From Niallia alba (GTDB taxonomy: Bacteria; Bacillota; Bacilli; Bacillales; Cytobacillaceae): a stretch of 64,000 nt of DNA. The notes beneath the pieces were generated by a model. That model had not been told where the DNA came from, ran no database searches, and saw nothing but the letters and a program-made list of their open reading frames with translations. Positions within the stretch are counted from its first letter, which is position 1. Each line of letters begins with the position of its first letter. The position numbers and the translations under genes are program-made. Of this stretch, positions 22,797 through 32,829 are shown in pieces. The DNA lies in contig NZ_JABBPK010000001.1 of assembly GCF_012933555.1 (NCBI RefSeq), positions 3,698,001 to 3,762,000 of the forward strand, written 5' to 3'.

Positions 22797-22882
22797 CTCA
22801 TCCCTTCATTTAAAAAGCATAAAACTGTATAATTTCATTTATACAAATGCAAAAATATGTTACATTTCTCTTAATTGGATTA

Positions 22883-22911
22883 ATTATAAATCATATTTAT
22901 CGCATTGTCAC
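22883..22911 (-). promoter_or_regulatory. Probable sigma-A promoter of aroA
   Basis: On the minus strand GTGACA (22911-22906), a 17-bp spacer and a perfect TATAAT (22888-22883). The palindrome at 22923-22962 begins 12 bases upstream of the -35. Confidence 0.65.
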
Positions 22912-22922
22912 TATTTTTCTTT

Positions 22923-22962
22923 AACAATTAAACGCTTTTAAGCGTTAAAGCGTTTAATTGTT
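22923..22962. promoter_or_regulatory. Perfect 16-bp palindrome between aroA and the FtsA-like gene
   Basis: AACAATTAAACGCTTT (22923-22938) and AAAGCGTTTAATTGTT (22947-22962) are exact inverted repeats around the 8-base centre TAAGCGTT, which itself repeats the AAGCG word. There is no adjacent T-run in either direction, so it is unlikely to be a terminator. It sits between two divergent genes, just above the aroA promoter, and may be an operator. Confidence 0.6.
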
Positions 22963-23039
22963 TCAAATAATAAATCTTTTCCTATAAATTTATCTTATAT
23001 TCTATTAACAATCTTTAAATAAAAAGAAGGTGTTTTCCC

Positions 23040-25214
23040 GTGCAAAGTAATGAGAAACTTTTTGCATTAGATATTGGTACTCGATCAGTTGTCGGAATTA
23101 TCTTAGAAAAAAAAGAGGATAGTTATCATGTTTCCGATTTATTATCCATTGAACATACCGAAAGAGCCATGTTAGATGGCCAGATTCATGACGTGTTAGC
23201 TGTTTCCAAGATTATTAAAGAAATTAGAGAACAATTAGAAGTAAAACATGGACCTTTAAAAAGAGTAAGTGTAGCTGCTGCTGGAAGAGCATTAAAGACA
23301 GAACGAGCGTCTTTTGAAATGAACATCGAAAGAAAACCGCTTATTACAAAAGAAGATATATTACATATGGAGTTAACCGCAGTCCAGCAAGCACAAAGCT
23401 CTGTCGCAGAAAAAAATGACCGTGACAAAAGTCAATTTTACTATTGTGTTGGCTATTCGGTTCTTTACTATTCTCTAGATGATCAAGAAATGGGAAGTCT
23501 AATCGATCAACAAGGATCCCTTGCAAAGGTAGAAATTATTGCTACCTTTTTACCAAGAGTGGTTGTAGAATCGCTTATCGCTGCCTTGCATCGAGCTAAT
23601 TTAGAAATGCAAGCGTTGACGTTAGAACCTATCGCTGCCATTAATGTCCTTATTCCCCCTTCTATGAGACGTTTAAATGTAGCCTTAGTAGACATTGGAG
23701 CAGGAACATCTGATATTGCAATCACAGACACAGGAACAGTTACTGCTTACGGAATGGTGCCTGTCGCGGGGGATGAAATAACGGAAGCAATCAGCGACGC
23801 ATATTTATTAGACTTTCCATTGGCCGAAAAAGCTAAAAGAGAATTATCCCAAAGTGATCAAATTACAATTTCAGATATTCTTGGTTTTACAACTGAATTA
23901 CATAAGGAAAATGTGATAAACGAAATTGAACCAGCTTTAGACAAATTAGCCGATACTATCTGTCGAGAAATTCTTTCATTAAACAATCATAAATCACCTA
24001 AAGCAGTGATGCTCGTTGGTGGTGGAAGCCAGACTCCAGCACTGCAACAAAAGATTGCTGAGATGCTAAATCTGCCTTCTAATCGTGTTGCAATTAGAGG
24101 AATTGATGCTATCACAAACTTAACCTTTGCAAAAGACTTCCATTTAGGACCTGAACTAGTAACACCAGTTGGAATTGCTATTGCGGCTGAGAAATCGCCA
24201 GTCCAATACAAAACAGTTTATATAAATGACCAACCCGTTAGATTGTTTGAAGTCAATAAACTAACCGTCGGAGATTGTATTTTAGCATCAGGTATTCGGA
24301 TGAACCAATTATACGGGAAACCCGGCAACGCAATGATTGTATCCATAAACAATCAAAAAATAACGATTCCAGGTAGTCATGGAGAAGGCCCTACCATTTT
24401 AAGAAAAGGATTGCCATGCTCCTTGGAAGATACTGTAGAAGACGGGGAATCCTTAATGGTTTATCGCGGAAAAGATGGAGAACAAGCTATTGTTCAAATA
24501 AAGGATTTACTTGATACAGAATCTGACAAAAATATAACAATAAACAATAAAAACTATACCATTCATTCCAAAATTCTTTGCAATGGAAAAGCTGTTTCTG
24601 CTGAACACCAGATAGAAGACAAAGATGTTATCGAGTATCAAGCAGATGCTACTATTCAAGAAGCATTAGAATCACTCCATTTATCGAATATGATCGAAGA
24701 ACTAAAGCCTTTTCACATTTTAATTAATGGAAAAGAAACAGTCCTTCCTGCTTTCTCAGGAAAGATTATGAAAAATGGTCTTTCTTGTCGCTTAAATCAA
24801 TTATTCGAAAATAATGATGTTATTCTATTAGAAAAGAGAAAAACGCCGACTGTTCAAGAATTGGCAGATAGAAAACAAATTTTAATGTACCAAGTACTGC
24901 CTGTATATTTTAATGATAAGAAAATAACGCTGACAAAACAGTTAGCACAAATACAAAGAAAAGGTCAAATTCTTCAAATGGATGATCTCCTATATAGCGG
25001 TGACGACATTAGAATCGAGCAAAAACCATTTGAGGGCTTTTTATTTCAAGATTTATTTGCTTTCGTAAATATCCATATGCCTCAAAATGGCGCAGGGTCT
25101 TTTCAACTGTTACGAAACGGGGAAAATGCAACCTTTTTAACGCCTATAAAAAAAGACGATCGGCTATCGATTGTTTGGCCTGCAAAAACAGAAAGCCCAA
25201 CTACAAGCAACTAA
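23040..25214 (+). CDS. FtsA/PilM-like actin-fold ATPase with long C-terminal extension
   Basis: A 724-residue protein. Residues 1-380 are an FtsA-type actin-fold ATPase: phosphate-1 FALDIGTRSVVGII at the N-terminus, phosphate-2 LVDIGAGTSDIAI near 217-229, adenosine motif VMLVGGGSQ near 324. Residues 390-715 are unlike FtsA: four or five modules, each starting with a strand of the type xIxINxxxIxI and ending in (D/N)D-hydrophobic-x-hydrophobic (EDKDVIEY, ENNDVILL, SGDDIRIE, KKDDRLSIVW), which looks beta-grasp- or SLBB-like. The amphipathic FtsA C-terminal helix is missing, so it is not the division FtsA. Function unknown; an assembly or envelope role is a guess. GTG start after AGAAGGTG. Confidence 0.8.
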   Translation: MQSNEKLFALDIGTRSVVGIILEKKEDSYHVSDLLSIEHTERAMLDGQIHDVLAVSKIIKEIREQLEVKHGPLKRVSVAAAGRALKTERASFEMNIERKPLITKEDILHMELTAVQQAQSSVAEKNDRDKSQFYYCVGYSVLYYSLDDQEMGSLIDQQGSLAKVEIIATFLPRVVVESLIAALHRANLEMQALTLEPIAAINVLIPPSMRRLNVALVDIGAGTSDIAITDTGTVTAYGMVPVAGDEITEAISDAYLLDFPLAEKAKRELSQSDQITISDILGFTTELHKENVINEIEPALDKLADTICREILSLNNHKSPKAVMLVGGGSQTPALQQKIAEMLNLPSNRVAIRGIDAITNLTFAKDFHLGPELVTPVGIAIAAEKSPVQYKTVYINDQPVRLFEVNKLTVGDCILASGIRMNQLYGKPGNAMIVSINNQKITIPGSHGEGPTILRKGLPCSLEDTVEDGESLMVYRGKDGEQAIVQIKDLLDTESDKNITINNKNYTIHSKILCNGKAVSAEHQIEDKDVIEYQADATIQEALESLHLSNMIEELKPFHILINGKETVLPAFSGKIMKNGLSCRLNQLFENNDVILLEKRKTPTVQELADRKQILMYQVLPVYFNDKKITLTKQLAQIQRKGQILQMDDLLYSGDDIRIEQKPFEGFLFQDLFAFVNIHMPQNGAGSFQLLRNGENATFLTPIKKDDRLSIVWPAKTESPTTSN

Positions 25215-30000: not shown

Positions 30001-32829
30001 TTATTCCGTTTCCTGAAATTGCAGTAATTCACTTTCTGTAATTAATACATCTCTCGGTTTTGTCCCTCTTGCTTCAGATATAAATCCTTGCTTCTCCATC
30101 ATATCAATTAACCTCGCTGCTCGATTATACCCTATTTTAAAGTTTCTTTGAAGACTAGATGTAGAAGCACCACCTTGTTCAATAATAAATTCACATGCTT
30201 CATAAAATAGCTCATCTTCTTCTTCAGACATTTGTACCTTTTTTAAAAGCTCTTCTTGCTCAAATAAATATTCTGGTTTTCTTTCTCTTCTTACGTGAGC
30301 AACCACTTGGTCAATTTCTTCATCTGATACATATGTTCCTTGTAATCGTACTGGCTTGGATGTGCCATTTTCTAAGAACAGCATATCTCCTTTTCCTAAC
30401 AGTTTTTCGGCACCACTTATATCAATCACTGTTCGTGAATCAATTTGAGAGGAAACAGAAAAGGCGATTCTTGTTGGAACATTTGCTTTTATTAAACCTG
30501 TAATAACATCTACAGATGGTCTTTGTGTTGCAATTAAGAGATGAATTCCGCAGGCTCTTGCCTTTTGGGCTATTCTGCTGATTGCTTCTTCAACATCAGC
30601 TGGAGCCATCATCATTAAATCCGCTAACTCATCAATAATAATCACTAAATAAGGCAATTTTTCACTGTATCTTTTATGCTCTTCTGCTAATTGATTATAT
30701 TTTGAAATATCTCTAACACCTACATGTGCCAAAAGTTCGTATCTTCTTTCCATTTCTTCTACGGCCCATTTTAAGGCAGCAGTTGCAGTCTTTACATCGG
30801 TAATAACCGGACTTGCCAAATGTGGTATATAGTTATATGGAGCCAACTCAACCATTTTAGGATCTACTAACAATAACTTCAGTTCCTCTGGCTTTGCCTT
30901 ATATAGCAAGCTTACAAGCATTGTATTTATACATACGCTTTTTCCAGAACCGGTTGCTCCCGCAATTAATCCATGAGGCATTTTTCGTAAATCCGTCACA
31001 ATTGGTTTACCGGAAATATCCAGCCCCATAGCAACTGTTAAAGGAGAAGAAGAATTTTTAAATTCATCGCTTTCTAAAATTTCTCTGATTAGCACTGGCC
31101 GGCTATTCCGATTCGGCACTTCAATACCGATTGTATGTTTTCCAGGGATAGGTGCTTCAATTCTTATATCCTTGGCAGCTAAACTTAATTTTAAGTCATC
31201 AGATAGGTTTGTAATTTTGCTAACCTTTACTCCTGGTTCGGGTTGAACCTCGTATCGAGTAACAGAAGGTCCTTGAGTTACATTTACCACTTTGGCATGA
31301 ACATTAAAATTAGTAAATGTATCATTCAAAAGCATCGTCTGCTCTTCAATCCATCCATCCTTTTCTATTTGTAAAATAGGGGGATGCAACAAATTTTCTT
31401 CAGGAAAAACATAGTATGGTAAGTTATGATAAACCTCTTCATCCTCTTCGCTTAAAGGTTGAACTATTTCTTCGACCTTTGGCTCTGGCTTTGGCTTATC
31501 ATAAACTTTTTTTTCGATTTTTTTATTCGCCAATGACTGTCTGTCTTTATTCAGCATCAACACATTAAATGGTAAAGGACCTTTTCGAGTAGGAGGTTTT
31601 CTCTCCAATGTTTTTTCTGAGGAATCTTTTTCTTCCTTTTCTTCAACAACCTCCTCGCTATTTTGCAGGAAGGTTTCTTCTACCTTTACTTCTGTTTCTT
31701 CAAACCGCAACAACGGTTGCTCATTATGTTCCTGCTCATCTACTAAGCTTTCTATCTGCCTATCTACTTCATTATCCTCCCAATCCCTTTCAAGACTAAC
31801 AGGTGAAGCAATCTTTCCTGGTTCTAATGAACTATCTCCGTTATTATAATGATGTGCATCTTCCTCTTCATCTAATGATTCTTCTGGATACGGAGAAAGA
31901 ATCGACTCTTGTTTATGCTCTTCCATTGTCATTGTAGCTTGTTCTCGAACTAGGTCTATCTCATCGGTCGTTTCGACTTCCTGAGTTATTGCTATCTCTT
32001 CAATTACTTCGACTTCCTGAGTTGCAGCTATCTCTTCAGTTACTTCCATTTCTGGAGTTACTACTATCTCTTCAGTTACTTCGGCTTCTGGAGTTACAGC
32101 TATCTCTTCGGTTACTTCGGCTTCTGGAGTTACAGCTATCTTTTCGGTTACTTCGGCTTCTGGAGTTACAGCTATCTCTTCGGTTACTTCTACTTCCTGA
32201 GTTGCAGCTATCTCTTCAGTTACTTCCATTTCTGAAGTTACTGCTATCTCTTCAGTTATTTCCGCTTTTGGAGTTACAAATAATGCATCAGTCACTTCCA
32301 CTATTTCCCGCACCACTTCATCTTGCCTTTCTTGTGATTGTATGACAGATGATTTTTGCCAACCGTCAACAGGCTCTTTTATTATAGGTCGTGATGTCGT
32401 TGTGCTTGTTTCTTTTCTTTCCGGACGATTATATCCATATATCGGAGAAACAACTTCCGTCGGCTTAAACGGACGATTTCCACTATATGTATTTGATACT
32501 TGTTCTTCCTTGAAATTATTTTTGGGCTGTTCCGTAAATTGTCGTTTAAATGGTTGATTGATTTCTTCCTGATCATTTACAAATGATTGCCTAGGTACTC
32601 TTCTTTTCTTTCGGTCTACTTCTTTCCTATCATCTTCATCCCCATCTGGTATTAACGGAAAACGAAAATTACCTTTTGGATATTGATAGAGAACTTTGGA
32701 ATCCATCTCTTTCTTCCATGCAGTGGATTCAACATTTGGTTGATTTTCTATCTCAACCGTTTTTTCAACTTGGTTCAGCTCCTCTTCTTCACTAACAAAC
32801 TGTTTAAATACTTTCTTGAACCAATTCAC
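30001..32829 (-). CDS. sftA: DNA translocase SftA (soluble FtsK/SpoIIIE type)
   Basis: A 942-residue septum-associated DNA pump that clears chromosomes from the closing septum. Unlike FtsK and SpoIIIE it has no membrane segments. Residues 1-470 form an acidic linker with nine tandem 12-residue units (189-296). The motor follows: Walker A GATGSGKS at 624-631, Walker B LVIIIDELADLMM, the FtsK signature IATQRPSVDVITG, and a C-terminal winged-helix gamma domain (last ~65 residues, QRNFKIGYNRAARLIDMME) that would read SRS-like polar sequences. The start is a GTG after AAAGAGTGATTAAGT. It lies next to murC as ytpT does in B. subtilis, but ytpR, normally its partner, is absent upstream. Confidence 0.95.
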   Translation of the reverse strand: MNWFKKVFKQFVSEEEELNQVEKTVEIENQPNVESTAWKKEMDSKVLYQYPKGNFRFPLIPDGDEDDRKEVDRKKRRVPRQSFVNDQEEINQPFKRQFTEQPKNNFKEEQVSNTYSGNRPFKPTEVVSPIYGYNRPERKETSTTTSRPIIKEPVDGWQKSSVIQSQERQDEVVREIVEVTDALFVTPKAEITEEIAVTSEMEVTEEIAATQEVEVTEEIAVTPEAEVTEKIAVTPEAEVTEEIAVTPEAEVTEEIVVTPEMEVTEEIAATQEVEVIEEIAITQEVETTDEIDLVREQATMTMEEHKQESILSPYPEESLDEEEDAHHYNNGDSSLEPGKIASPVSLERDWEDNEVDRQIESLVDEQEHNEQPLLRFEETEVKVEETFLQNSEEVVEEKEEKDSSEKTLERKPPTRKGPLPFNVLMLNKDRQSLANKKIEKKVYDKPKPEPKVEEIVQPLSEEDEEVYHNLPYYVFPEENLLHPPILQIEKDGWIEEQTMLLNDTFTNFNVHAKVVNVTQGPSVTRYEVQPEPGVKVSKITNLSDDLKLSLAAKDIRIEAPIPGKHTIGIEVPNRNSRPVLIREILESDEFKNSSSPLTVAMGLDISGKPIVTDLRKMPHGLIAGATGSGKSVCINTMLVSLLYKAKPEELKLLLVDPKMVELAPYNYIPHLASPVITDVKTATAALKWAVEEMERRYELLAHVGVRDISKYNQLAEEHKRYSEKLPYLVIIIDELADLMMMAPADVEEAISRIAQKARACGIHLLIATQRPSVDVITGLIKANVPTRIAFSVSSQIDSRTVIDISGAEKLLGKGDMLFLENGTSKPVRLQGTYVSDEEIDQVVAHVRRERKPEYLFEQEELLKKVQMSEEEDELFYEACEFIIEQGGASTSSLQRNFKIGYNRAARLIDMMEKQGFISEARGTKPRDVLITESELLQFQETE
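31942..32265 (-). repeat. 36-bp tandem repeat inside sftA
   Basis: Nine in-frame units of 36 bp encode variants of AEVTEEIAVTPE (residues 189-296). The middle units (about 32040-32200) are nearly identical in DNA, the outer ones drift. Slippage-prone; copy number is likely to vary between strains. It also gives rise to a long spurious frame on the opposite strand. Confidence 0.93.

Follow-up and report, generated by a model that had tools for sequence, protein, structure and literature searches.

Two groups of described proteins come close to the two-part protein analysed here. For its N-terminal part these are FtsA (TIGR01174, PF14450), PilM (TIGR01175, PF11104) and MreB/Mbl (PF06723), and for its C-terminal tail ThiS, MoaD, TGS and ubiquitin. 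In its available part, PMC12645912 lists the actin-like proteins ParM, FtsA, MamK and MreB and adds FcmB, a cyanobacterial protein acting in bacterial morphology. Among other sources accessible in part, PMC4938410 is about ftsA adjoining ftsZ, PMC6971209 and PMC5210280 refer to an indel in FtsA and a mutation in PilM, and PMC9871819 gives general background; a word search of the accessible text of PMC12700454 did not return the term 'FtsA'.

The window, a stretch of 64,000 nt of Niallia alba DNA, contains a plus-strand ORF with a GTG start (23040-25214) encoding a protein of 724 aa plus stop (Table 1). Its closest named relative is a protein of Niallia circulans (89%). In the open-licence PMC literature we found neither a paper on a family joining an FtsA-like domain to beta-grasp modules nor experimental work on it, and met no description of a bacterial cytoskeletal protein that uses ubiquitin-like modules. 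The family is a real and common kind of two-part protein and, by our literature searches, an undescribed one. As an actin-like ATPase it is ordinary; what makes it unusual is the ubiquitin-like tail and the Mre-Min-RodA setting. FcmB is likewise actin-like; it differs in being cyanobacterial, and the available part of PMC12645912 mentions no beta-grasp tail; the two are compared here by description.

Upstream of the ORF, AAGAAGGTGT at the probable ribosome-binding site is kept in all seven aligned upstream regions. Also on the upstream side, within the divergent region (22797-23039), is a 40-nt inverted repeat (22923-22962), AACAATTAAACGCTTT and its complement flanking 8 nt, which we take to resemble a site of the CcpA (cre) type. 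Its core, TTAAACGCTTTTAAG, is preserved in 7/7 aligned relatives, and a good promoter match on the other strand points away from the repeat. Elsewhere in the window, an FtsK/SftA-like ORF on the minus strand (30001-32829) includes a tandem repeat at 31972-32279 with 8.5 copies of a 36-bp unit (also readable as 2.9 copies of 108 bp).

Table 1. Features of the actin-like/beta-grasp gene (positions in the window; motif names are our assignment, module identities are predicted, and the borders of modules 2 and 3 were set by reading)
Feature	Position	Strand	Basis
Whole ORF, 724 aa plus stop	23040..25214	+	ORF call
Probable ribosome-binding site, AAGGTG	23027..23032	+	Sequence
Actin-like (FtsA/PilM type) nucleotide domain, residues 1-382	23040..24185	+	Pfam PilM_2, FtsA; NCBIfam ftsA
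Presumed phosphate-1 motif LDIGTRSVVG, residues 10-19	23067..23096	+	Conservation
Family signature RAMLDGQIHD, residues 42-51	23163..23192	+	Conservation
Presumed phosphate-2 motif DIGAGTSDIAI, residues 218-228	23691..23723	+	Conservation
Presumed adenosine motif VGGGS, residues 326-330	24015..24029	+	Conservation
Predicted beta-grasp module 1, ~residues 387-481	24198..24482	+	VIA-align: SAMP1, ThiS, MoaD over model residues 2-96
Predicted beta-grasp module 2, ~residues 495-557	24522..24710	+	HHalign repeat; strands and helix in tail model
Predicted beta-grasp module 3, ~residues 558-614	24711..24881	+	Repeat, tail model; ubiquitin/TtuB matches over residues 555-664
Predicted beta-grasp module 4, ~residues 615-716	24882..25187	+	Weak Pfam ThiS match, residues 670-714

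The actin-like domain compared with FtsA, PilM and MreB

Pfam matches of the window protein were led by PilM_2 (E 7.2e-14), followed by FtsA (8.3e-11) and MreB_Mbl (1.4e-6); the top PDB sequence match was FtsA, entry 7q6g (4.5e-11). The NCBIfam ftsA profile TIGR01174 aligned to residues 8-353 (E 1.7e-24). Across 43 aligned sequences, the window's included, the three nucleotide motifs were invariant or nearly so at most of their positions. The preliminary description, made from the sequence of the window, had proposed an FtsA-like ATPase half with three nucleotide motifs, and these results bear it out.

The actin-type domain and the nucleotide motifs are what the family shares with FtsA. Unlike FtsA, the window protein scored half the TIGR01174 cut-off (86.6 versus 175.85 bits), carries an added beta-grasp tail and lacks two FtsA features. 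The arginine of the IxxR motif, which we take to be part of the FtsA site binding the FtsZ tail, was present in 13/13 canonical FtsA and 0/27 family members. The C-terminus of the window protein is a strand (IVW) followed by a polar tail. The largest amphipathic moment of any 14-residue stretch in the last 30 residues was 0.31, against 0.58-0.87 in 13 canonical FtsA and 0.25-0.55 in 12 family members; by this test the FtsA-type C-terminal amphipathic membrane helix is absent from the window protein, as had been claimed. The highest value among the 12 members (0.55) belongs to the long member L031, so the long forms may have a membrane anchor. The window genome also encodes a canonical FtsA (427.6 bits) and two more, shorter FtsA-profile matches, in ORFs 343 and 351 aa long.

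A maximum-likelihood tree of 51 actin-type domains grouped all 27 family rows in one clade (support 100/100). The 13 canonical FtsA formed another (97/98), with the family outside it, and three MreB and eight PilM-type rows also fell outside the family clade. Since the PilM and stem branches are long and were flagged, this tree can be relied on only for the unity of the family. FtsA membership was rejected on the sub-cut-off score, the missing membrane helix and IxxR arginine and the position outside the FtsA clade, and the earlier claim that the protein is distinct from FtsA holds. PilM has a related actin-type domain, but the window protein scored 76.2 bits against the TIGR01175 cut-off of 133 and has the beta-grasp tail, the PilM-type rows lie outside the family clade, and separate PilM genes coexist with the family gene in some genomes (see below); PilM membership was likewise rejected. 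MreB/Mbl has the actin fold in common with the window protein, and mreBCD lie near the family gene at nine loci; it differs in its separate long branch and in that MreB-type genes accompany the family gene (e.g. at L003). By the tests run, the family is neither FtsA nor PilM.

Beta-grasp modules in the C-terminal tail

The C-terminal repeats noticed earlier go beyond chance. HHalign was run on 15 pairs of tail segments. Two pairs overlapped trivially; of the rest, 11 produced non-self matches with probabilities of 96.2-99.6%, one reached 94.1% and one only 49.2%. The 11 matches were offset by approximate multiples of 60 residues, indicating a repeat of ~60 residues. In a 76-member alignment, hairpins with VNG and NG...GD strands and a TVxDALL-type helix recur along the tail.

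Pfam ThiS (PF02597) was found at E ≤ 0.1 in 25 of the 33 tails scanned, the window's among them, with a best E-value of 4.6e-14. Other matches at the same threshold were Ub-Mut7C (23 tails), TGS (PF02824; 21), S4 (8) and DUF348 (8). The window tail taken alone matched ThiS with E 0.0026, under Pfam's cut-off, and PDB sequence searches with tail alignments gave best E-values of 0.076 and 0.018.

Structure models were built from six sequences. The full-length model had a mean pLDDT of 61.2 and the tail model 71.8; from residue 151 of the latter, ten-residue means were 77-90 apart from a single value of 63 and a final value of 45, and confidence was low across module 1 (38-69). A Foldseek search with the tail model returned nothing below E 0.001, and its list consisted mostly of ubiquitin-like chains. 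VIA-align, which re-scores that list, placed near the top SAMP1 (Z 8.0), a multi-ubiquitin protein (7.9), TtuB (7.8), a chain of molybdopterin synthase (7.6) and ThiS (7.4); Z below 8 may reflect no more than a common arrangement, and many of these matches fall on the low-confidence module 1. The model resembles SAMP1, ThiS, MoaD and ubiquitin.

It is because the sequence matches and the model are taken together that we regard the tail as composed of beta-grasp modules. By our reading of strand order, the window tail would hold about four tandem ThiS/ubiquitin-like modules and the shortest members two (member length ranges from 587 to 866 aa). The preliminary description had offered beta-grasp or SLBB modules; the first stands and the second is unsupported, SLBB being absent among the 25 families listed of the 32 matching the tails (a weak match to Poly_export, 0.049, came from one member).

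The modules are like those of ThiS, MoaD, TGS and ubiquitin in sequence and in the model. In contrast to these proteins, the family has several modules in tandem on an ATPase, and none of 96 members ends in GG. Therefore no sulfur carrier of the ThiS/MoaD type is expected in the family, and we rejected this role for the tail.

Distribution and gene neighbourhood

The family was present in 163 of 299 sampled Bacillota genomes and absent from 136 (presence meaning E < 1e-40, with up to three candidates scored per genome). In the sample of relatives it was found in 32/41 genomes, the window genome counted. The longest members (816-866 aa) are L031, L032, L035, L042 and L052, all of genome family f49; no FtsA in their genomes passes the cut-off, and each of these genomes has two SepF matches.

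A scan of viral contigs (viral_contigs) gave two loci, L097 and L098. On inspection by eye, L097 (4524-6380, on a 228-kb IMG/VR viral contig) reads as a DnaK-type chaperone ORF of 618 aa, and viral origin was rejected; a second scan with a short-type member as query found no relative. Family members also occur in gut records filed as 'Bacteriophage sp.' (L140, 5001-6587, and other MT83xxxx records). These are probably bacterial DNA filed as phage, since the one inspected is an UNVERIFIED, unannotated scaffold.

In the window the family gene is solitary, between a divergent DAHP-synthase-like gene and ytxJ/H/G-like genes. With minor changes, this order recurs in all 15 loci of the type, with the DAHP-synthase-like gene divergent on one side and ytxJ/H/G-like genes and murC on the other (names assigned by reading).

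Another 48 loci with different gene orders were read. At nine of them the family gene lies between minE and rodA, in the order mreB-mreC-mreD-PBP2-minC-minD-minE-[family]-rodA-(M23)-M50. The three genes share a strand; the distance to minE, where an ORF was called for it, is -14 to 138 nt, and that to rodA is -22 to 194 nt. Neighbours were named by Pfam in L069 and by BLAST to L069 in the other cluster loci; in L124 minE was visible by tblastn only, and in L123, in the ORF selection used, the place of M23 is held by an opposite-strand ORF. The nine loci come from three genome families. The fraction 9/48 overstates the frequency of the cluster, because only two of the nine were among the first 28 loci and the other seven were fetched for kinship or length.

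At three further loci the family gene comes after an MreB/Mbl-type gene, a second gene and one of TagA type, and a CtsR-like gene follows it (TagA-type and CtsR-like being labels given by reading). Neither setting was found at the remaining 36/48 loci.

In C. difficile, according to the available part of PMC12548448, an ftsA orthologue is reported absent and a possible polar effect on rodA is given as the reason why minCDE is essential; min and rodA would therefore lie in one transcription unit there too. In C. beijerinckii, mre and min genes are co-located and regulated separately (PMC6362236, available part). In some lineages the family would be an addition to the Mre-Min-RodA cluster, in others a gene on its own. 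The envelope link suggested earlier draws support only from the gene order of some relatives (the mre-min-rodA cluster); in the window the gene stands alone.

Proposed function and alternatives

The analysis shows the fold family, motifs, modules, lost FtsA features, Bacillota distribution and gene order in relatives. From them we infer a distinct, FtsA-related, cytoplasmic and soluble actin-like ATPase of Bacillota. Its nucleotide domain probably binds ATP, which it may use, and may self-assemble as FtsA does; the tail would probably be a docking scaffold for shape and division proteins, with MinD, MreB/MreC, RodA/PBP2 and the divisome as candidate partners. Control of the division site and of elongation could in this way be coupled to peptidoglycan synthesis without the FtsA membrane helix. 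A scaffold role in shape or division is probable because some lineages place the gene within a shape and division-site cluster. We tentatively favour, at somewhat short of even confidence, a cytoplasmic actin-like scaffold tying Min/Mre positioning to wall synthesis. We counted for it the nucleotide motifs, the beta-grasp tail, the family's own clade, the nine plus three loci and the 11 of 30 genomes with no FtsA over the cut-off; counted against it were the 36/48 loci with neither setting, the solitary gene in all 15 loci of the window's order, the 136 of 299 genomes lacking the family and the choice of seven of the nine cluster loci by kinship or length.

The likeliest alternative is that the protein is a functional FtsA which tethers or regulates FtsZ, with the tail standing in for the membrane helix, especially in genomes that lack canonical FtsA. 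FtsA is the closest HMM match, and 11 of 30 family-bearing genomes (hand-picked carriers) had no FtsA over the cut-off, but in the other 19 both proteins occur together. The missing IxxR arginine and membrane helix also speak against this role. So does SepF, another FtsZ anchor, which was found in 12/12 genomes, namely the 11 lacking FtsA and the window genome. We consider a functional FtsA unlikely.

A part in sporulation, such as asymmetric division or engulfment, would agree with the excess of the family among genomes encoding SpoIIR: 150/251 versus 13/48 of those without it (odds ratio 4.0, p 3.3e-5, with kinship ignored). Still, 101 SpoIIR-bearing genomes lack the family, 13 SpoIIR-less ones carry it (five belonging to a single genome family), and the mre-min-rodA setting points to vegetative growth. 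We therefore see little probability in a sporulation role, and since 13/48 SpoIIR-less genomes carry the family, a role confined to sporulation is unlikely.

The top Pfam match and one record annotated PilM (Anoxybacillus amylolyticus) might suggest that the protein serves a pilus or secretion machine as its PilM-type subunit. This is very improbable given the score below the pilM cut-off, a separate PilM over the cut-off in 6/15 family-bearing genomes (in the window genome none at E 1e-20) and PilM-type rows on long branches outside the family clade. By eye, no pilus gene was recognised beside the family gene in the window.

To return to the scaffold reading, a fuller form of it, which we regard as doubtful, has a separate actin family whose polyubiquitin-like scaffold tail couples Min and Mre to RodA/PBP2 and which takes on part of the regulatory role of FtsA in FtsA-less lineages. 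If this were true, the module count of the tail would determine how many partners a subunit holds.

The family occurs in over half of the Bacillota genomes sampled, and some Bacillota are without FtsA. For C. difficile, substitutes for FtsA and related proteins are said to remain to be discovered (PMC10693644, available part). With its gene placed between minE and rodA, this conserved ATPase offers a concrete candidate for a link from division-site control to wall synthesis.
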